The position numbers and the translations under genes were made by a program. Positions 3,625 to 22,036 of a stretch of 23,046 nt of DNA are shown in pieces. The DNA comes from Entophlyctis helioformis (taxonomy: Eukaryota; Chytridiomycota; Chytridiomycetes; Chytridiales; Chytriomycetaceae): NCBI GenBank assembly GCA_025526915.1, contig JAHLKH010000294.1, positions 1-23,046 of the forward strand, written 5' to 3'. Position 1 is the stretch's first letter. Each line of letters begins with the position of its first letter. Under the pieces are notes generated by a model that saw only the letters and a program-made list of their open reading frames with translations, was not told the origin of the DNA and did no database searches.

Positions 3625-3695
3625 GCGCCAGTGGTTTAGTGGTAAAATTCATCGTTGCCATCGATGAGCCCCCGGTTCAATTCCGGGCTGGCGCA
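3625..3695 (+). tRNA. tRNA-Gly (anticodon GCC)
   Basis: The acceptor stem GCGCCAG (3625-3631) pairs perfectly with CTGGCGC (3688-3694), followed by discriminator A. The anticodon arm is CATCG-TTGCCAT-CGATG with anticodon GCC. The T arm is CCCGG-TTCAATT-CCGGG. The D-loop carries TGGTTTAGTGGTA, which includes the internal A box, and GGTTCAATTCC is the B box. There is no intron, and CCA is not encoded, as expected in eukaryotes. Confidence 0.97.
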
Positions 3696-6515: not shown

Positions 6516-6527
6516 AAATGATTTATC

Positions 6528-6536
6528 ACTTTTTTC
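6528..6536. repeat. Target-site duplication, left of element A
   Basis: ACTTTTTTC, identical to 14333-14341 at the other end of the element. It is followed by GGCCCG, the start of the left terminal inverted repeat. Confidence 0.8.
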
Positions 6537-6537
6537 G

Positions 6538-6559
6538 GCCCGATATTCATACAATTGCC
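6538..6559 (+). repeat. Left terminal inverted repeat of element A
   Basis: Starts GCCCGATATTCATAC and matches the reverse complement of 14311-14332 at 17 of 22 positions. The first five bases and the TCATAC core are identical. The same right-end sequence begins element B at 19761. Confidence 0.8.
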
Positions 6560-6576
6560 AAGGTTTTGGAGTTAAG

Positions 6577-6734
6577 TTCGTCGCAAGAGGCGTCGAAAGA
6601 AGCCCGCGTATCACACGATGGAAGGTTCGAGTCAGCAAAGACATGCGACGACAGGCGGGCGAGGCACATCCAACGAGGGTCTCACTTTATCGTTAGAAAA
6701 GTGACCCGTTAGGTCGATCGGGAGGTTCCCCGAT
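6577..6734 (-). ncRNA. Candidate Fanzor guide RNA (omega/fRNA) scaffold region
   Basis: Three hairpins lie between the Fanzor zinc-finger exon and the left end of element A. They are: 6717-6722 paired with 6729-6734 (6 bp, perfect); 6677-6688 paired with 6698-6707 (10 bp with a 2-nt bulge); and 6577-6584 paired with 6590-6597 (7 of 8 pairs). The first two overlap the open 3' end of the Fanzor frame. TnpB and Fanzor guide RNAs typically come from the 3' end of the nuclease gene and run towards the element end. Position and structure fit; expression and boundaries are inferred. The guide would be expected to point to the 6537 end. Confidence 0.4.
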
Positions 6735-8884
6735 TCAAAGTTGGTGGTCAAACAAGTCACTGTGTGGATGCAGGTCAAGTGACTTGAGGGCAGGCTGTCT
6801 GCGTGCTGGTCGCAGCTGGCGACGGATGGACCGTGTCTTGAACGCGCACAGGAACGTGCCAGGCTGATCTTATCCCATGAGGCCACATGCGACTTGAAGT
6901 GTTTCCGCGTTTGAGGCTGTGGGACAACAGACGGAGCATCTCGTGCACGCAGCTTGATGGCGTATGCATTCGCGATGCGTTTGAGGTGCACTGGCGTGGC
7001 TGGATTGCTGTCGGCTTTGGTGTGCGTCAAGTAGAGCGGCCGGTGTCCAAAGAGCAGATGCCACAGCGCGACCATCCCGATGTTGGTGGCTCCAAGCACG
7101 TCTCGGTGGTAGACGGTCTTGCATGGTATGCACTCGTAGCGTCGCAGGTTGGTGCGGTTCTCGTATGGGATCCGCTGCTTGCACTGCGGGCACATCTGGC
7201 TGGTCAGGTTCTCGTTGCAGCGGTAGATCTGTGTGTGGTGTGTGGTGCATGATCGTGTGTCAGTTGGTGCACAGAATGGATGGATGGATGGACAGTGTGG
7301 CATCAGACGCACATAGGCATATCCAGATGACCGCAGATGCCTGATGAGAAACCTCTCAAACACAGCGTGCCGGCCACCTTGACCTGTAAAGTCGATGCCA
7401 AATGCCCACACAACGGAATGTTGTCCTCTGTCACTTTGTTCGGTCGACAGGGAGGCCTTGAGATGCAGCAGATGCGCGCTTGCCAGTGGTCGATCCTGCC
7501 AGCTTCATGATGCCCTCAAGAGCATTTCCGCGAATAGACATGCGGTTGCTGCGCTTGGTGAACCGCTTGGCCTTGACCTTCTGTGGATGCCATGCCATGC
7601 CATGCCGTCCAGTGCAATCAGCAGGCAATCAAGCAGCTTGGCGGCCATGCCAGTGGGCATCCAGAACCAGAGAAACGTACCCGTGCATTCAGGAATGGCG
7701 TGCAGTACGCATGGCAGCGCAGATCCCAAAAGGCTCTCTCGCCAGGCTTGACGTTTGGATCGGCATGCTTTGCTGTCTTGAATGCGATGGCCGCCTGGAT
7801 GTCGGCTGCCTTGGCATATCGATTGTTGAGCCTGGTACAGGAGGCAGGCACTGTGAGTTGATCAGGTCAAGAGTGCGCATGGCAGAGTCATTGCATGCAT
7901 ACCACCGCTGAAGATGCCCTCGGCATGTGCCATGCCAGAGGAGAGCACGTAGTTGGACTCGAGCTTATACGAAAAGTCTCTGAGATCAACCAAGATACTG
8001 GATGCGCCATACAGGTACCGCTCGCCCCAGTCAAAGCTGACAACGCGAACAGTCTGGTAGCCTTGGTCAGTGAACAGGTTGTTGGCGTTGATGATGTTGG
8101 GCAGTCGCTGTGAGGCGTAAAAGTTGCGCTTGCCCTGTCGTGCCATGGAATGAGTGAGGGATGTGCAATGCATGTGCACCAATGCGCGAGTTTAGCATGC
8201 AAGTGGCTTACAGGATTGGGCGTGTATGGCTTGGCGGCTGACGGGTTGGCTGGATGGCGGCTGTGGATGGCATGTCAGTTGGTGTGGACAACAAGTGTGC
8301 GTCTGGATTGGCACAGCAACTCACATTCGCCATCCAAGCCATCATCCAAGCAATTATTCACGCCACCAAGGCCACCAAGACCTCCATCATCAAAAATACT
8401 GTGCTGCTCGTCTGAAGACGCCGCGTTGGGATCTGTAGATCAAGGCGGCAGTCAGAATCCATGTGTGCACCAAAGCATTCAAGCATGCCACATACTGCGA
8501 GGCGACTCTGGACGGTTTGTGCGGCCATTGAGAGCCAGCTGGTAGATGCTGTATCCATCCGTCATGATGCTGCCCAGTCTGATTGTCTTGATTGGCCTCG
8601 CTGGACACGCGGCATCAATTGCAGCCTTGATATGCTCCTCGCGCTCCTTGCCAACCAGACCCCGCCATCAGCCTCTCGCGTTGCCTTGGCTGTGGCATCG
8701 GCTGTGGCCTTGGCAACCGCGTCCATTCGCGCTTTGGCCTCCGCAGGAGTCTGGAAGCGTCGCTTGCTCAAACAGAGTCCAGGAAGGAGGATTCGAGAAC
8801 ACAAACCTCACGGCTTGCACTAAACGCCTTCTCGATCGTGTCATTTGGTGACTCGAGTGTCAAGTCTTCATCTTTGTAGTCTAC
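6632..8884 (-). CDS. Fanzor (eukaryotic TnpB-like RNA-guided nuclease) portion of the element A gene
   Basis: Minus-strand exons read in order. An alanine-rich helix (AEAKARMDAVAKATADATAK, about 8780-8700) leads to IMTDGYSIYQLALN (about 8570-8530), which resembles the tDGvs motif that closes the N-terminal part of Fanzors. RuvC-I is VRVVSFDWGERYLYGAS (about 8060-8010). A basic helical exon, KVKAKRFTKRSNRMSIRGNAL, lies near 7570-7510. The RuvC-II region is VWAFGIDFTGQGGRHAVFERF (about 7420-7350). After an intron (acceptor at 7229) comes CNENLTSQMCPQC, then ECIPCKTVYHRDVLGATNI. The last two segments give a CxxC...CxxC zinc ribbon and the RuvC-III Asp in the DRDxxxAxNI position. No Glu is visible at the classical RuvC-II position, whereas NENLTS carries one, as in the rearranged site known from many Fanzors. 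Frame breaks lie near 8690, 8780 and 7420-7440. The C-terminus after about 6900 is low confidence. It probably continues the same transcript as the FEN1-like part, because a GTAGGT...TAG intron (8883-8947) joins it to upstream coding sequence. Confidence 0.82.
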
Positions 8885-8946
8885 GATAAAAGTGCAGTGT
8901 CAGCATCATATCATGCAGACATGGCATTTACAGGCAGTGCGACCTA

Positions 8947-11824
8947 CTGAGTGCAGCAAGGAGCTGCTCTCTCAATGCTTGCAAGACAGCATTGTCCTTG
9001 GTGGGTACGCGATCCTTCTTTGCCCCCATGACAGCCCAAAAGAGGGTGGCTCTGTGATGAGGACAAAGGGATCGCGGCTCGCCGGCTGCGGGCACAGCTT
9101 GATGGCTGTGCCGCCTGCGAGATCTCGCAGTTGCTTGAACTTGCCTGCCGGCGACAATGACGCGTTGCACTCGACCGCCATGAGCTTGTGCAATGCTTGC
9201 GGTAGCTCAACGTTGTCCTGGCCCTCTGTGGCTTGTGTTGTGCCAGGCGTACCGTCCTTGGTGGAGCCTTGCCCTTCCTGTGCCGTTGCCTCTTGGGTTT
9301 GGCGCTGTTGGTGGCCGATGAAGAGCTTGATGCGGGCCGCTTGCAGCCTGCTGTGGGAGGGGCGGCATCCAGAGTGGCTTGTGGTGTGGCGTCCTCGGCG
9401 GTAGCAAGCTTGGCGGCCTTGGCAGCCTTGGCGTCCTCAGCGTCCTTTGCAGCCTTTGCGGCCTTGGCAACATTGGCAGCCTTGGACATGATCTCGCGCC
9501 ATTTCTTGACATCCTCGGCAGACGAGCCAGGAACCAGGCGGTGGATCGCCGCGTCCACCAGCATCGACTGGTTCGAGATAAAATGCGTAGAGAGGGTGCC
9601 GCAGATATCCCTGGCCAGATTGCTGTAAATGCTCTTTGTGGCATCTGCACATAAGCTGTTGTCAAGAATGCCAGGCAAAACGCCATCCATGGCGTCTGCC
9701 TCCATCTGCACCGCGTCATCCTGCATCTCAGACGCCTGGATTGTGGCTGCCTGCTGGTTGCGCCGCCGTGTCTGCATCCATTGCAAACATGCGCAGCTTG
9801 GCCGCATCCTCCTGCATCTGCGCCATGCTGTCCTGCACCATCCCCTTTGTCCAAGTGCAATGAATGATCATCTGCATGGTCGTAACAAGCCATGAGTGCA
9901 CAACATGCTTGTACGCTCGTGGCTTGACCATCTGGCCACCTGCCAGAATGTACGCGAGGTATCGCAGAAGCATCGTGACGGCTCCCTCACCGCCAGAGAC
10001 GCTGCTGGTGAGCGCCGCGAGTAGATCATTTGCTGTTGGGACGGCTGGTCGCTGGACAGCTTGTTGTGGAGCATTGGTGCCGCTGGATGCTGCTGCTGGA
10101 TTGTGCACATCATGCTCGTCATGGGTGTCCAAGTCGTCAGGCTGCACAGGCAGCTCGGGCACATTGAGCAAGGAGATCTCGAGTGACACGCCCTGCTCAT
10201 CATGCTCGCCGTGGTCGTCGTGGTCGCCGTGGTCGTCGTGGTTGTTGTGGCCATGATCGCCGTGGTCATCAGGCTGTGTGGCCTTCTTGGCTGCCTTGAA
10301 CTCGCAGATCTTGAGCACCGTGCTGCTCTCGAGGGTCACCAAGTCGCCATACCGATGCAGCTTGCTGTTGCTGCTGCGTGGGCCATCACCGTACATCCGC
10401 CACACGGTGATGGGCTGTCTGAGGACGCACCCATTGGCATAGAGTGCCATGCTGTCCTTCTTGCCAAGGTCGTCCGGATTGACAAAACAGAGTGTTGTCA
10501 TGCCGTCCTTTGTTGCTTCCAAGACGCAGTATCGAAGTGGCAGCGGCGCGTCTGGGCTGAGCATGACCAACTCCTCGATCATTGCGGCAATCAGAATGAG
10601 ACCCGCGCGCCATATGCTTGCCGTAAACCGATACACGGCATTGAAAATGTCCTCGACGACCGTGCCGCGCGTCTGCATCGCCGGCGGCGTCTTGACTTGG
10701 CATCCAAACGCCTTCATAAAGATGGGGTCGGCAGAGAGCATTTCCTGCACATCGCACAAGTCAACACACACAAAACCAGACGCGCAGATCAACATGCCAA
10801 TCCAGAACCATACCGCGAGATTGACAATCTGCTCAGGACGATCATATGTGCTCTCCACCGGCCTTGGCTCGTCGCCATGGATGGCAGCGGCACCCGTCAT
10901 GACTGGCAATGCAATCAGGCGATAGATTGCTTCCAGTAGCTGCTGTATTGCTGATCTCTCGCCACGCTCGTATCTGTCAAAGAACGCGCTGGTCAGCATG
11001 CACATTCAAGGCACGCGACATGCCATATGCCACTTACGCCCGTGTCTCATCTTCAGATTGAGCCTGGCGGGCTTGCTTGCTCGCATCCTTCTTGTGCTCC
11101 TGGATGGTCTTGTCTGTCACGGCCTTCTCTGCACGCTCAGCTCGCTCCTTCTTGAATACAGCCTGTCTGGCCAGTGTGACAAGGTATGGATCCTGCTGTG
11201 TTTGGATGCAATATTAGGCGTGCATTCTGAATGTGCGCAAGATGCTCATGATCACAAGCCTGCACTTCAACTCACGGTTGTCTTTGTGTCTTGAAGCACA
11301 TCAATGTAGAGGATCTTGTCGCGATCTGTGCCATCAGCTGCGGCTGGAGATGGCAGCAGCATCTTTGGCGCTTTCGGTGGCTTGCCGACCTGTCAAGTCA
11401 AAGCATGAGCAGGTGCATCAAGCCGCCACATGCAAACAGAGCATAGAAATGCAAAGACGCACTGGGGCTCGCTCAATGATCAGTTTCAGCGTGTCTGTGG
11501 CTTGTTGATACTGCTCAGAAAGTGCCAGCGGCTTGAAGTCGTCCGGGCTGTGTTTCTTTTGGCATTCCAAGAGATTCAGCGTGTCTACGGCCTGGTTGCG
11601 AATGGCAGCAACAGCCTTTCGAGTCGCGATCCGTGTGCTCTTTCTGCGGTGCTGTTTAGCCTTGCGGTTGCCTGCCAGAAGAATGCCGTGATTGATTGTG
11701 AATACACAAGGTCGCACTGTGCCAAACAAATGCAGAGCGAACCTGGCTTCCTTGACCGCCTGAATGGTGCACATGCGACGCCTGGATACCTCTTGAGCCG
11801 TTCCTGCAGTCTCAGGATCACCAT
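8947..11824 (-). CDS. Unrecognised middle region of the element A gene
   Basis: A chain of minus-strand exons links the FEN1-like and Fanzor parts. From right to left: MVILRLQERLKR (11824 on); AVKEARFALHLFGTVRPCVF to LKLIIERAP (about 11790-11465, GTGCGT donor); VGKPPKAPKMLLPSPAADG to LQDTKTT (about 11395-11280); DPYLVTLARQAVFKKERAER to SEDETRA (about 11190-11035); then one long exon from 10975 to about 8948. The long exon holds a hydrophobic stretch (VNLAVWFWIGMLICASGFVCV), a His/Asp repeat (DDHGDHGHNNHDDHGDHDDH, about 10265-10200), an Ala/Lys heptad-like helix (AANVAKAAKAAKDAEDAKAAK, about 9490-9420) and a Ser-rich basic segment. Frame breaks lie near 9775, 9290 and 9025 (a C5 run). No family is recognised. 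It could be an accessory or targeting domain, or a very diverged transposase. Element B is cut before this part, so there is no second copy in the window. Confidence 0.6.
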
Positions 11825-11921
11825 CTGCTCGCCCAGTGATGGATCAAGTCAGCCATGCTCAAAATCAGCAAGAGCATGCAGTGGACAGTCAAGACACGCA
11901 TCCAAGCCATCCAAAACTCAC

Positions 11922-13685
11922 AAAGGCGTGTAACAGGCTCTGCTCAGCTGGGCTGAGTATCTCATATCCTTTTGTAGCGAGATCCTTCTCGTGCACAGCC
12001 TGGAGCAGCTGCTTGCTTGCATTCTCGCAGATATCAGCAAGAATGTCGCGGCCATTGATGCTGTCATTGGCAAGCTGATCTGCTGTGCACCGGAGGATGC
12101 AGCCAAGCACGACACGGCAGCTGTTGAATTCGTCAAAAACGCCGTCCATCCGCCTTGTGCTGACAGTGTGGTTGGCGAGCTCTGTGACTGCGTCCCGTGT
12201 GATGTGCCAAACCGCACCACTGGCATTGCCCTTCAGCTGCTGTGCCGTGTGGCTCAAGCAGCAGTCACTGCAGACCGTGCATGCAGAGGCAGATCTGCCA
12301 GTGGCATCCATCAGAGTCAGTGCCACAAGAATCCTCCAGAGATCGCAGCCGTGCCTACCTGTTTTGGGGCGAGGCGGTCCTGTTGGCAGTGATGCTGTCG
12401 CCATTGGATGGTGCATGCATTCATGTCAATGCCATGCTGTCCAAGTGCATCCAAACCAAGACTTACTGCCGCATCTGTCCTGCAAACACACTGGCATAAT
12501 GGCCACATGCTGGGGCTGTGATCTCTCCAATATCAGCTCCTCTCTCGTCACGGTTGAGAAACACCGCGAAGGCATTGCTGAATGACTGAGCAAGAGGCTT
12601 GCCGCCGATCTGGTACATCTGCCACATGAACGCGATCTTGATGACATGCACAAACATTCTGGCAATGTCGGGGTCTTGGAGGCATTCACAGACATCCGCA
12701 ACAGAGATGCCCAGCTGCTCTGCCTCCAAACGAATGCATGCCATGATGCACTTTGCAGCCGTGACAATTCCTTTCAAGTCCACAATGCAGCATCACGAGT
12801 AAGTCAAGGTCGCAGTGCATGGCATCCAAAAATGCAAAGCAGGCAAGTCAACCTACCAATCCCAACACAATGAAAGTAGTCATTGCTTGCCATTGCGGCC
12901 ACCAACTGGCAGACAAAGGGAATGTCTGGCAAGCCTAAGGCGGCTGCAATAGAGGCAATGCCATGGTGGTTATATGATCGCATCCGTGCAATCTGCCCAC
13001 TGCGCAGTTGCAGCAGCAGGACAGGGCAATAGCCGGCACAGTGGAACACCAGATCGGAGTCGCCACTGATGACCATGACTGGCACATTGCTGTCAAGAAG
13101 GCGCGTGAGCCATGGATTCTAGAAGCATGCAGAAGGCCAACCAACCTTGCTTCGTGGGAATGGCGTGCAATGCAAACATCTGCCTCATTCTCGCAAAGGC
13201 ACACAGACGACCCGCCTTTGAAGTATCCAAGAAGACTGCCAATGGCCTTCGAGATGGCTGCCTTGCGCTGCCGCGTCAGGGGGTATGCCTTCTGCAGGCG
13301 CTGCATCTCGTTTCTGGAATGGCATTGAGTCAGTACAGCATGCAGATCAACAGAAGCCAAGAGCATACCTTGAGAGCTTGCCGCTCTTCTGGCCGGCATT
13401 TCGCTTGGCCGCCTCAGCCATGAGAAAGGATGCCGCCTCCAATGCTGCCCAGGCCCGCCCGGCATAAGCAGCCTTGATGCCAGTGTCGAGCTGCGAGCCA
13501 TCCACATGCAGCTGGACTGTGTGCAGCTGTCCAATGGCCGCGGCGAGGCTGCTGATGAGCGGCTCAAGTAGCAGCCTCCAGTCGTTGTCAGACTGGGGCG
13601 GCTTTGCGGCTGCTGCTCTCATAATGTCAATGAAGAGCAGGCAAACGATGTCGACATGGATGATGCAGCTGATGGGCTCGGAGTC

Positions 13686-13718
<33 letters not shown>

Positions 13719-13832
13719 ATCTGGCTGCTGCTGGGCAATGGCCTGAATGGCACCTGAGAGAGGGGTGTCTGCTTTGTGGGTTTTGCTACCACCTGCTTTG
13801 TCGATGGGAGGAGTCGCGCCGACGACTCCCAT
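11922..13832 (-). CDS. FEN1/XPG-type (PIN-like) nuclease portion of the element A gene
   Basis: Exons are 13832-13369, 13313-12857, 12770-12467, 12394-12359 (36 nt) and 12294-11922. Both this copy and element B carry acidic residues at every position of the FEN1 active site. In this copy these are: CIIHVDIVCLLF; LHVDGSQLDTG; CENEADVCIA; VISGDSDLVFH; and NDYFHC. NDYFHC leads into a helix-hairpin-helix (GIGIVTAAKCIM) completed across intron 2. A Lys/Arg helix after HVDG resembles the helical arch. A Cys-rich tail follows (SACTVCSDCCLSHTAQQL). FEN1-family enzymes cut flapped or branched DNA. The start at 13832 is shared with element B, and the first 18 codons are identical in protein. Relative to B, exon 2 lacks one base in an A run at 13098-13099, which shifts the frame. 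A poly-Ala tract encoded by a CTG/CAG repeat is specific to this copy. Confidence 0.82.
13687..13718. repeat. CTG/CAG trinucleotide repeat coding poly-Ala
   Basis: About ten CTG units in exon 1 of the FEN1-like gene. Read on the minus strand in frame they give an alanine run. The repeat is absent from the element B copy, whose first exon is 15 nt shorter. Confidence 0.85.
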
Positions 13833-14000: not shown

Positions 14001-14159
14001 CACATGACTATGCATTCGCCCCTCTTTATTCATGGAGGACACACACGCACGGCCCAGCGAGACAGCAGGCGCTGCTACCTGCACCACGGCCGTTGCTGTG
14101 CTCGCATCGCGCAGTGTCTGCACTGTGCAAGGGCTCTCTAGATCGACCAATCACAGCGA
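14001..14159 (-). promoter_or_regulatory. Near-invariant upstream block of element A
   Basis: This 159-bp block matches the reverse complement of 19821-19979 with one visible substitution (14077), although the coding parts of the two copies differ at about a quarter of residues. It lies about 170-330 bp before the start codon. In gene orientation it contains AATAAA, and it adjoins CCAAT-bearing repeats. Probably a promoter or 5' UTR under constraint, or a tract homogenised between copies. Confidence 0.6.
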
Positions 14160-14310
14160 TCCCACCAGGATCGGCAATCACAGCGACTCCACCAGGAGTT
14201 GACCAATCACAGCAATTCCACCAGAATTGACCAATCACAGCGACTCCACCAGGAGTTGACCAATCACAGCAATTCCACCAGAATTGACCAATCAGGAATA
14301 TTCCACCAGG
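14145..14310 (-). repeat. Subterminal 28-bp tandem repeat with CCAAT boxes, six copies
   Basis: Units start at 14145, 14173, 14201, 14229, 14258 and 14286 (periods 28, 28, 28, 29, 28). Each begins GACCAATCA (the second unit GGCAATCA) and ends with a TCCACCAG segment. Element B has two copies at the same place (19783-19835). Two roles are plausible: a promoter CCAAT-box array, or subterminal binding sites for the element's recombinase. Confidence 0.85.
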
Positions 14311-14332
14311 GGTAATGGTATGAGAACCGGGC
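14311..14332 (-). repeat. Right terminal inverted repeat of element A
   Basis: Its complement begins GCCCGGTTCTCATACC and matches the left end (6538-6559) at 17 of 22 positions. It is identical to the start of element B at 19761. Confidence 0.82.
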
Positions 14333-14341
14333 ACTTTTTTC
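14333..14341. repeat. Target-site duplication, right of element A
   Basis: ACTTTTTTC, identical to 6528-6536. The TTLL9 start codon is 18 bp further on. Confidence 0.8.
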
Positions 14342-19704: not shown

Positions 19705-19782
19705 GGCGGTGTGGAGGCAAGTGCCCGTTCGTGGACCCGCACGCGAAACGCGGAAGACGTGCCCGGTTCTCATACCATTACC

Positions 19783-19979
19783 CCTGGTGGAATCGCTGTG
19801 ATTGGTCAATCCTGGTGGAATCGCTGTGATTGGTCGATCTAGAGAGCCCTTGCACAGTGCAGACACTGCGCGATGCGAGCACAGCAACGGCCGTGGTGCA
19901 GGCAGCAGCGCCTGCTGTCTCGCTGGGCCGTGCGTGTGTGTCCTCCATGAATAAAGAGGGGCGAATGCATAGTCATGTG
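19783..19979 (+). promoter_or_regulatory. Promoter-like end of element B (two CCAAT repeats plus conserved block)
   Basis: GATTGGTC occurs at 19800 and 19828 (28-bp period) within the same repeat that is present six times in element A. The following block 19821-19979 is almost identical to element A 14001-14159. AATAAA lies at 19950-19955. The ATTGG boxes could serve the element gene to the right and, by position, kexin to the left. Confidence 0.55.
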
Positions 19980-20149
19980 CAACGCTCTCTCTCTCCTCTC
20001 TGAGGAGCATGCCATTCCACACACAGACCAGTGCTCCATGCATTGCCGCCAAACAATCAGAGCATGTCAATGCAAACAAACACCAGATCGCGACTTGCCA
20101 CGACACACAACAACACGCAACAACAAACACACAAGCACGCCCAACACAC

Positions 20150-21976
20150 ATGGGGGTCGTCGGCGCGACTCCTCCCATCGACAAAGCAGGTGGTAGCAAA
20201 ACCTTTGATCCCACAAACCCTCTCTCGGGTGCAATTCAGGTCGTGGTACAGCCCCCTCAAACACTGCAGCAGCACAACACAGAGCGTCCGCCCATCCAGT
20301 GTGTTGTGCATGTGGACGTTCTCAGTCTTTTTGCTGGCGATATCTACAAAGCAGCACCAATACTGCTGGCACAGCCAGAGGAAAACTGGACGCCGACACT
20401 CGAGCCGCTCATTGCCAGCCTCGCAGCATCAATTGGAAAGCTCCACATGGTCCGGCTCCATGTCGATGGCTCGCTTCTCAACACCAATATCAAGGCTGTC
20501 CGCACTGAGCGGGCACGGGTAAATTTGGAAGCAGCATTGTCGATCCAGACAATGGTGGCCAAGCGAAAAGCAGACCAGAAAGGCAACAGGCTCACAAAGT
20601 ATGCCACTTGCTGTTGTTGATTTGCATGCCGTGCTGACTGAGTGCCCTTCCAGGGACGAGATCCAGTCACTCCAGTGGGCATTTCCATTGACATGCGAGC
20701 GTAAGGCGGCAATCTGCGGGGCCATTGGGGGTCTTCTTGGATACTTTGGGGAAGGGTCATCTGTGTGCCTTTGCGATAATGAGGCGGATGTTTGCATTGC
20801 ATGCCGTGTGCGCAAAGCAAGGTTGGTTGGTCTTCTGCATGCCTCTCCAATCCATGGCTCACACGCCTTTCTTGACAGCAATGTGCCGGTCGTCGTCATC
20901 AGTGGTGATACCGACCTTATCTTTCATTGTGCCGGCTATTGCCCTGTCCTGCTGCTGCAAATGCGCGGCAGACAGATTGCGCAGATAAGATCGTACAACC
21001 ACCCAGGTGTAGCATCTATTGCAGCCGCCTTTGGCTTGCCAGAGATTCTTGACATCTGCCGGTTGGCGGCAGCCGCAGCGAGAAATGACTATTTTCATTG
21101 TGATGAGATTGGTATGTTGGCTTGCCTGCTTTGCAATTTTGGATGCCATGCGCTGCGACCTTGACTTACTCGTGATGCTGCAATGATGACTTGCAAGGGA
21201 TCGTCACGGCTGCAAAGTGCATTATGGCATGCATTCGTTTTGAGGCAACATGGGCAGGGATCACTGTCGCAGAGTTCTGTCAACGCCTGCAAGACCCAGA
21301 CCTTGCCAGGATGTTTGTGGACGTCTTCAAGGCCTCATTTATGTTGCAGATGTACAAGATCGGCGGCAAGCCTCTTGCTCAATCGTTCAGCAATGCCTTC
21401 GCGGTGTTTCTTGACCGTGATGAAACTGGAGCGGATATTGGAGAGTTCACAGACCAAAGCCATGGTTGTTATGGGGATGTTTTTGCTCAAATGATACCGC
21501 TGTAAGTCTTGCTTTGGATGCACTTGGACAGCATGGCATTGACATGAATGCATGCATCATCCAATGGCAACAGCAGGACTGCCAACAGGGCCGCCTCAGC
21601 TCGAAAAAAGTAGGCGTGCTTGTGATCTCTGGAGGATTCTCATGGCACTGACTCTGATGGATGCCACTGGCAGATCTGCCTCTGCATGCACAGCCTACAG
21701 CAACTGCTGCTTGAGCCACACGGCACAGCAGCTGAAGGACAAGGCCAGTGGTGCGGTTTGGCACCTTACACGGGATGAAGTCATGGTGCTCGCCAAGCAC
21801 ATTGTCAACACAAGGCGACTGGACGACGTTTTTGTCATGCTCAATGGCTGCCGTGTCGTGTTTAGCTGCGTTCTCCGATGCACGGCAGACCTCCTCGCCG
21901 ACGACATTCTCAACGGCCGCGACATCCTTGCTGATATCTGCGAGAATGCAAGCAAGCAGCTGCTCCAGGCTGTGCA
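20150..21976 (+). CDS. FEN1/XPG-type nuclease gene of element B, 3' part replaced by an LTR insertion
   Basis: Exons 20150-20598, 20654-21111, 21198-21501, 21574-21609 (36 nt) and 21674 onward. The four introns are 55, 86, 72 and 64 nt, the same lengths as in element A. The frame is uninterrupted. Acidic active-site positions: VVHVDVLSLF; LHVDGSLLNTN; CDNEADVCIA; VVISGDTDLIFH; and NDYFHC, followed by the helix-hairpin-helix IGIVTAAKCIM. Over 73 residues of exon 2 it matches element A at 53. Exon 5 (SACTAYSNCCLSHTAQQL to SKQLLQAVH) ends abruptly where element A continues EKDLATKGY, because the retrotransposon LTR begins at 21977. Without the rest of the element the protein would be a FEN1-like domain with a foreign tail. 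This copy gives the best reference frame for the family. Confidence 0.85.
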
Positions 21977-22036
21977 TGACTGGCGTATCGCTAAAGAAGC
22001 ATATTGTAGTACTGGGCCGCCAGACGGACTTGCCGG

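Follow-up and report, generated by a model that had tools for sequence, protein, structure and literature searches.

The window analysed here, a 23,046-nucleotide stretch of the chytrid Entophlyctis helioformis (contig JAHLKH010000294.1 of assembly GCA_025526915.1), was found to contain on its minus strand, at approximately 14332-6537, a terminal inverted repeat (TIR) transposon flanked by a 10-bp target-site duplication (TSD), GAAAAAAGTG. The ends of the element, GCCCGGTTCTCATACCATTACC at the 5' side and ATATCGGGCC at the 3' side, are imperfect inverted repeats of one another and are common to the aligned copies. Between them lie exons of a putative FEN/XPG-like nuclease, a linker, a long middle region and a Fanzor (Table 1). 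The initial annotation had assigned both nucleases to one transposon spanning 6632-13832; one transposon does hold both parts, but its true extent is larger. The FEN-like exons described at 13832-11922 were recovered with GT-AG introns and in one frame, and the Fanzor was located on the same strand of the same transposon by a PF07282 zinc ribbon at 7249-7079 (E 3.2e-9, above the curated cut-off). As had been claimed, no intergenic gap was present: six in-frame introns, after reference codons 519, 547, 616, 654, 706 and 759, connect the FEN part with the middle exon. The intron reported at 8883-8947 as the joint between the middle region and the Fanzor exists, in phase 1, but is placed at 8947-8881.

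The window copy is dead. Eight frameshifts interrupt it (at approximately 9760, 9261, 9049, 8794, 8666, 7909, 7433 and 6769), all of them outside the FEN part and the linker. These frameshifts ruled out a working gene in this copy, and sibling copies were used in its place.

Table 1. Features of the transposon and of a related element in the window
Feature	Position	Strand	Remarks
5'-side TSD GAAAAAAGTG	14332..14341	.	same letters as 6527-6536; last base common to element end
5' TIR GCCCGGTTCTCATACCATTACC	14311..14332	-	96 genome places with at most 3 mismatches; none for the pattern read backwards
Subterminal 28-29 bp repeats, CCTGGTGGAATCGCTGTGATTGGTCAAT type, 6 copies (family D3)	14142..14311	-	
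Exon 1	13369..13832	-	begins with the ATG (13832); N-terminal FEN-like segment containing the first Asp ligand and DG
Exon 2	13146..13313	-	CENEAD motif
Exon 3	12857..13089	-	SGDSDL and NDYF motifs
Exon 4	12467..12770	-	remaining helix-hairpin-helix-like segment and C-terminal helices
Exon 5	12359..12379	-	21 bp
Exon 6	11922..12294	-	Cys-containing region downstream of FEN part
Linker exons 7-11	11824-11743, 11671-11463, 11389-11276, 11192-11038, 10973-10814	-	
Exon 12, middle region, with stretches that are acidic or rich in Lys/Arg	8948..10744	-	carries 3 frameshifts
Exons 13-14, Fanzor WED part, TDG motif	8880-8492, 8260-8212	-	carry 2 frameshifts
Exons 15-18, Fanzor RuvC and zinc ribbon	8134-7903, 7831-7681, 7580-7313, 7228-6738	-	carry 3 frameshifts
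Cas12f1-like TNB zinc ribbon (PF07282)	7079..7249	-	
Largely non-coding conserved 3' end (candidate scaffold of a guide RNA)	6537..6739	-	
3' TIR, ends ATATCGGGCC	6537..6561	-	166 genome places with at most 3 mismatches; none for the pattern read backwards
3'-side TSD GAAAAAAGTG	6527..6536	.	same letters as 5'-side TSD
5' piece of second element	19761..22004	+	subfamily C, ~97% to L020-L023; TIR and FEN exons

To reconstruct the gene, a custom-written spliced protein-to-DNA aligner was run on 21 copies with a hand-built protein of 1,902 codons from copy L009 as the query. The aligner was restricted to GT-AG introns and guided by the gaps of the reference, so that shared intron places were partly built in; the independent checks are the effects of intron retention and the public gene model P0003. 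L009, being the source of the reference, fits by construction save at one intron, and L020 is the independent case. Both copies run from FEN to Fanzor over 1,902 reference codons and 17 introns with no frameshift and no stop; in L020, 1,737 of the 1,902 codons were aligned, and 1,194 of these 1,737 were identical to L009. The remaining aligned copies are frameshifted or shortened. If an intron were retained, the frame would meet a stop or be shifted in 15 of 17 cases in L009 and in 17 of 17 in L020. When 15 junctions were tested, an intron was found at most 6 codons away in all covering copies at 14 of them and in 20 of 21 copies at one, mostly with equal phase. Introns recur with the same place and phase across six subfamily types, with few exceptions, and six of them separate the FEN part from the middle. 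P0003, which fits copy L017 on C239 at 520 of 520 residues, agreed exactly with our gene model at four introns and was off by a few bases at the fifth, its sixth lying outside the reference. The exon joins of P0001 appeared the same by eye.

Selection was estimated as the ratio of nonsynonymous to synonymous distances (dN/dS) by the Nei-Gojobori method in ten between-family pairs. The ratio was 0.21-0.45 for the FEN part (one of the ten pairs being saturated), 0.18-0.51 for the middle and 0.28-0.71 for the RuvC part of the Fanzor. All ratios given here are rough, many synonymous distances (dS) being near saturation. The linker (0.51-0.70) was weakly constrained, and the Fanzor tail was less constrained (0.26-1.11, with 1.11 in one pair).

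These last two results weigh against a single fused protein, and several others do so as well. In L009 the intron that follows codon 1370 has lost its usual acceptor, and the aligner chose other sites there. The public gene models give the FEN part as a separate protein of 397 or 520 aa that ends in or just past the FEN part, and no fused relative of 1,053-3,350 aa was found in the protein database among the 7,986 candidates with most words in common. Such models, together with the stop that arises in 17 of 18 copies when the intron after codon 519 is retained, would agree with two proteins per locus, in which the FEN protein ends in that intron and the Fanzor comes from another start or splice form. 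We consider this arrangement unlikely. Of 18 copies, 16 have the intron after codon 519 in phase 0 and with a length of 96-98 nt; it is shifted by one codon in L023 and differs in L028. Where the following exon has an ATG in the window, L009 has ACA. Moreover, the linker, with its dN/dS of 0.51-0.70 between families, is without a frameshift in 18 of the 21 aligned copies, some of them partly covered; L013, L017 and L028 have one to three frameshifts there, and the linker fits of L018 and L019 are doubtful. The sequences show a genuine single reading frame, for which one giant FEN-Fanzor gene is the preferred model, with a single protein as its likely product. The single giant gene that the initial annotation held possible was well supported, as one reading frame, by shared frames, introns and selection, but not in the window copy itself, which is broken by its frameshifts.

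By the published motif and the Pfam cut-off, the C-terminal part is a Fanzor, that is, a predicted RNA-guided nuclease. The motif described for Fanzor/TnpB is D-X(125-275)-[TS][TS]-XX-C4 zinc finger-X(5-50)-RD (PMC3627910). It was found in L009 as D1550, 188 residues, TS1739, four cysteines at 1743-1766, five residues and RD1772, written here as D-X188-TS-XX-C4-X5-RD. PF07282 scored 37.2 bits in the window and 40.3 bits in L009 (curated cut-off 26.3). A TDG motif of the WED domain has been named for Fanzor/TnpB (PMC10711439), and the corresponding T1478-D1479-G1480 was invariant in at least five of seven compared copies, with no alternative residue. A PDB sequence search with the Fanzor part gave no match. 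One more short exon may be contained in the 231-nt intron between exons 13 and 14 of the window, and likewise in the intron after codon 1500, which measures 199-357 nt in most copies. The last stretch of the element (6537..6739 in the window) had a mean column identity of 86% in the 16 of 21 copies with the end found. An RNA fold of this 3' end had a z score of -2.0 in L020 and showed almost no covariation, with a double change at 1 of 52 pairs; Rfam gave no match to the conserved 3' end.

The N-terminal part is likely a divergent FEN/XPG-like 5' nuclease of the flap or EXO1 type, an identity based on invariant acids, sub-threshold Pfam matches and EXO1 fold matches from a low-confidence model. 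The carboxylates D56, D106 (D106-G107), E193, D195, D216, D218 and D276 (P0001 numbering), which we take to be equivalent to the FEN1 ligands, were invariant in eight of eight rows. With the predicted P0001 structure, the top 14 Foldseek matches were all FEN/EXO1-superfamily 5' nucleases, EXO1 ranking first, although this model was of low confidence. Six FEN-type proteins were found in the protein database, every one from E. helioformis.

Against this identity stand the weakness of the profile matches and of the model. The profile searches placed the Fanzor above its cut-off (PF07282) but left the XPG-type matches of the FEN part below theirs: XPG_I_2 matched six of eight FEN rows (best E 3.9e-4), and the FEN part of the window scored 19.6 bits (E 7.1e-4; cut-off 24.2 bits). 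PF00867 and PF12813, searched over the genome, gave matches at C1, C2, C38 and C43 and at none of the listed FEN loci; hhalign of the FEN part to the host XPG, EXO1 and FEN1 gave no significance; the P0001 model had a predicted local distance difference test score (pLDDT) of 43.8; and none of its Foldseek matches reached an E of 0.001 or better. A PDB sequence search with the FEN protein gave no match, and one with the FEN profile gave a chance xylanase (E 1.8) as its sole match. In the PHROGs scan, two families that have no assigned function each matched a single FEN row (E 0.017 and 0.056), and none of 32 pattern matches in viral contigs was confirmed as a relative. A deep alignment of FEN exon pieces had 11% column identity and was set aside. 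That the FEN part is too divergent for XPG models in the genome search could mean that the fold is kept and the nuclease inactive, its role at the N-terminus of a long Fanzor being to bind DNA or to provide structure; the N-terminal halves of Fanzors are described as strongly divergent (PMC3627910). However, the FEN-type acids are invariant in all rows, which makes a dead nuclease unlikely, and we regard this explanation as quite improbable.

The family has more than 100 whole or partial copies in the 29.6-Mb genome. The middle exon gave 142 genome matches, the Fanzor zinc ribbon at least 150 (150 of 205 candidates being scored) and the FEN exon query 154, the best 150 of which fell into 124 loci. 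Of the 150 zinc-ribbon loci, 53 had a listed FEN locus no more than 9 kb upstream on their own strand, at 5.1-6.4 kb for 50 of them, whereas none had one downstream and one had it on the other strand. Correspondingly, 53 of the 124 FEN loci had a listed zinc ribbon downstream. These counts cover the listed matches and a FEN query taken from a single subfamily, so that they are lower bounds on the pairing. When 20 copies were chosen by the middle exon, 17 aligned at least partly to the FEN part, and L016, L018 and L019 did not. The 97 zinc-ribbon loci without a listed FEN upstream weigh against a constant pairing; in three of these inspected by eye, no FEN was seen, the loci being family members without the 5' part in the stretch read. 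Retroelement sequence was seen upstream in two of the three.

Of 94 transcribed 5' ends, 41 paired with one of 100 listed 3' ends within 20 kb, and 28 of these elements measured 7,231-9,794 bp. TSDs, called at a score of at least 7 with ends free to shift by 3 bp, were sought in 31 of the 41 pairs; a 2,168-bp pair and nine of more than 13 kb were left out. Matching flanks of 7-12 bp were present in 19 of the 31 elements, compared with 1.6% of 930 mispaired flanks, and the TSDs were mostly 8-11 bp. On the other side, 12 of the 31 were without a convincing TSD, and four of the 19 were two flank-sharing pairs (C18 with C272; two 1-kb copies), so that 17 independent cases were counted. By its inverted repeats and TSDs, the family is a TIR DNA transposon.

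The two 1-kb copies, L093 (C35:164492-165479) and C436:7861-8911, are internally deleted and keep both ends and the zinc ribbon; they have common flanks, and one is therefore probably a duplicate. Both flanks or the 3' flank are also common to C18:101646-109654 and C272:1114-10816, and to C141 and C176. These two pairs suggest segmental duplication or ectopic exchange.

Sequence exchange was also apparent between families. Among family representatives, best-match identity was 79-85% for the RuvC part and 94-97% for the zinc ribbon, compared with 42-65% for the FEN part, and dS between families was low in the RuvC and zinc-ribbon part (reference codons 1516-1800). The 3' third of the element thus seems to have been homogenised between families. 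Two elements are chimeric: L024 joins an A-type FEN part (97%) and a D-type middle, and L012 a C-like start and an A-type body. From the chimera L024 and the similarity of the Fanzor third, it may be concluded that recombination among families took place. This similarity and the chimera may fit copy-back repair; ordinary ectopic exchange would account for them as well.

The TIRs and TSDs lead one to expect a transposase. None was recognised by eye in the open reading frame (ORF) lists of six copies, nor in five places (L089-L093) sharing the 5' end, where either no FEN was listed or the element was short (ORFs being listed for C199). No other gene was recognised in these five either; C199, C109 and C35 keep remnants of the 3' Fanzor end, C100 keeps a FEN start, and C11 has only 5' sequence to the contig end. 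In the genome, no match was obtained for the MULE transposase PF10551 (six-frame exon-by-exon search; control detected in 3 of 14), for an IS1595/Merlin-type transposase, or for a hAT transposase, for which the control was silent too. KDZ transposase gave four genome matches, three of them with stops; C334, C271 and C396 carry these few, partly broken matches, and no link to the TIRs was seen, and no in-depth search for one was made.

The transposase may sit in the middle region or act in trans. Accordingly conceivable, and in our view doubtful, is that the FEN-like nuclease and a catalytic domain hidden in the middle are the transposition machinery that processes the element's own ends, with the Fanzor separately favouring retention. 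The missing transposase would agree with this, as would the constraint on the middle region, which gave no convincing Pfam or PDB match and could conceal such a domain. However, the invariant acids of codons 760-1370 (D824, D1230, D1328 and E1335) are not readable as a known DDE pattern, a DDE enzyme still being possible, and the predicted fold of the middle is too poor for a test either way (pLDDT 47.8; best Foldseek E 2.8, no fold assigned).

Near the other end of the window, the 5' piece of a second family member, inverted relative to the main element, ends at 22005 in another repeat, which interrupts the second FEN copy and reaches the contig end (22005-23046, +). This repeat recurs within or beside elements L010, L017, L018, L019 and L026; its L019 and L030 relatives resemble, by eye, a Ty3-type pol with chromodomain. 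A tRNA gene lies at 3625-3695 (+; Rfam RF00005, 63 bits).

Academ transposons, as reported in Repbase, carry an XPG nuclease together with a DDE transposase and a helicase, have 3-4 bp TSDs and are not known to contain a Fanzor. The present element resembles them in having an XPG-type nuclease within a DNA transposon; its Fanzor, its mostly longer TSDs and the lack of a recognised transposase set it apart. Also close is SPu-1 of Spizellomyces punctatus, a Fanzor1 element described as approximately 2.1 kb long with one 633-aa ORF, 33-bp TIRs and putative TA TSDs (PMC3627910, PMC10432273). Both are chytrid TIR elements with a Fanzor, a zinc-ribbon motif, many copies and no recognised transposase; unlike SPu-1, the elements here measure 7.2-9.8 kb, contain 17 introns, have TSDs of mostly 8-11 bp and encode an in-frame N-terminal FEN-like nuclease. 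The Mariner element PGv-1 likewise carries a Fanzor and a second nuclease, but as separate proteins, with a Mariner transposase present and a second nuclease of another fold, GIY-YIG (PMC3627910). In KolobokP and other Kolobok lineages, which are DNA transposons too, an added nuclease has been proposed to cut and to favour spread through recombination; they differ in their DDE transposase and His-Me or exonuclease genes, and the paper in question names no Fanzor (PMC9587614). No FEN/XPG-Fanzor pairing was found in the literature searched, although transposons with a Fanzor and transposons that have gained other nucleases are both known.

The repeated pairing of the two nucleases and the constraint on both parts suggest a joint role, as the initial annotation had proposed. 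We give about an even chance to the reading that the element is a TIR transposon whose single recognised gene, of ~1,900 codons and 17 introns, encodes an N-terminal FEN/EXO1-type 5' nuclease and a C-terminal Fanzor that serve copy-back. The first cut would be made by a transposase, perhaps in the middle region or in trans. The Fanzor part would be led by a guide RNA, made from the conserved 3' end, to its target, either the empty site left by excision or one on the sister or allelic chromosome. The Fanzor part would cut this empty site, the tethered 5' nuclease would resect or de-flap the ends, and the break would go to homologous recombination from the element-bearing copy, whereby the element would be restored or added. 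Fanzor cleavage at the sister chromosome has been called a possible aid to transposon spread, as with TnpB (PMC10432273).

More tentatively, the protein could be a natural RNA-guided cut-and-resect enzyme. The transposon would have joined a Fanzor and an EXO1/FEN-type 5' nuclease of its own, and every guided break would be resected immediately and thereby driven into homologous repair; this would be a self-contained copy-back system without a classical transposase gene, a possibility that we hold to be on the speculative side. Fusions of RNA-guided nucleases with exonucleases have been engineered, and the enzyme, if the proposal is true, would be their natural counterpart. The biological roles of Fanzors remain unknown according to PMC10432273. 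The present family comprises subfamilies that have diverged to graded extents, its open-frame copies number at least two, and the presence of an RNA-guided nuclease and a FEN/EXO1-type nuclease in one conserved frame, as predicted here, makes the copy-back idea testable, since it predicts that homologous repair would be coupled to resection.

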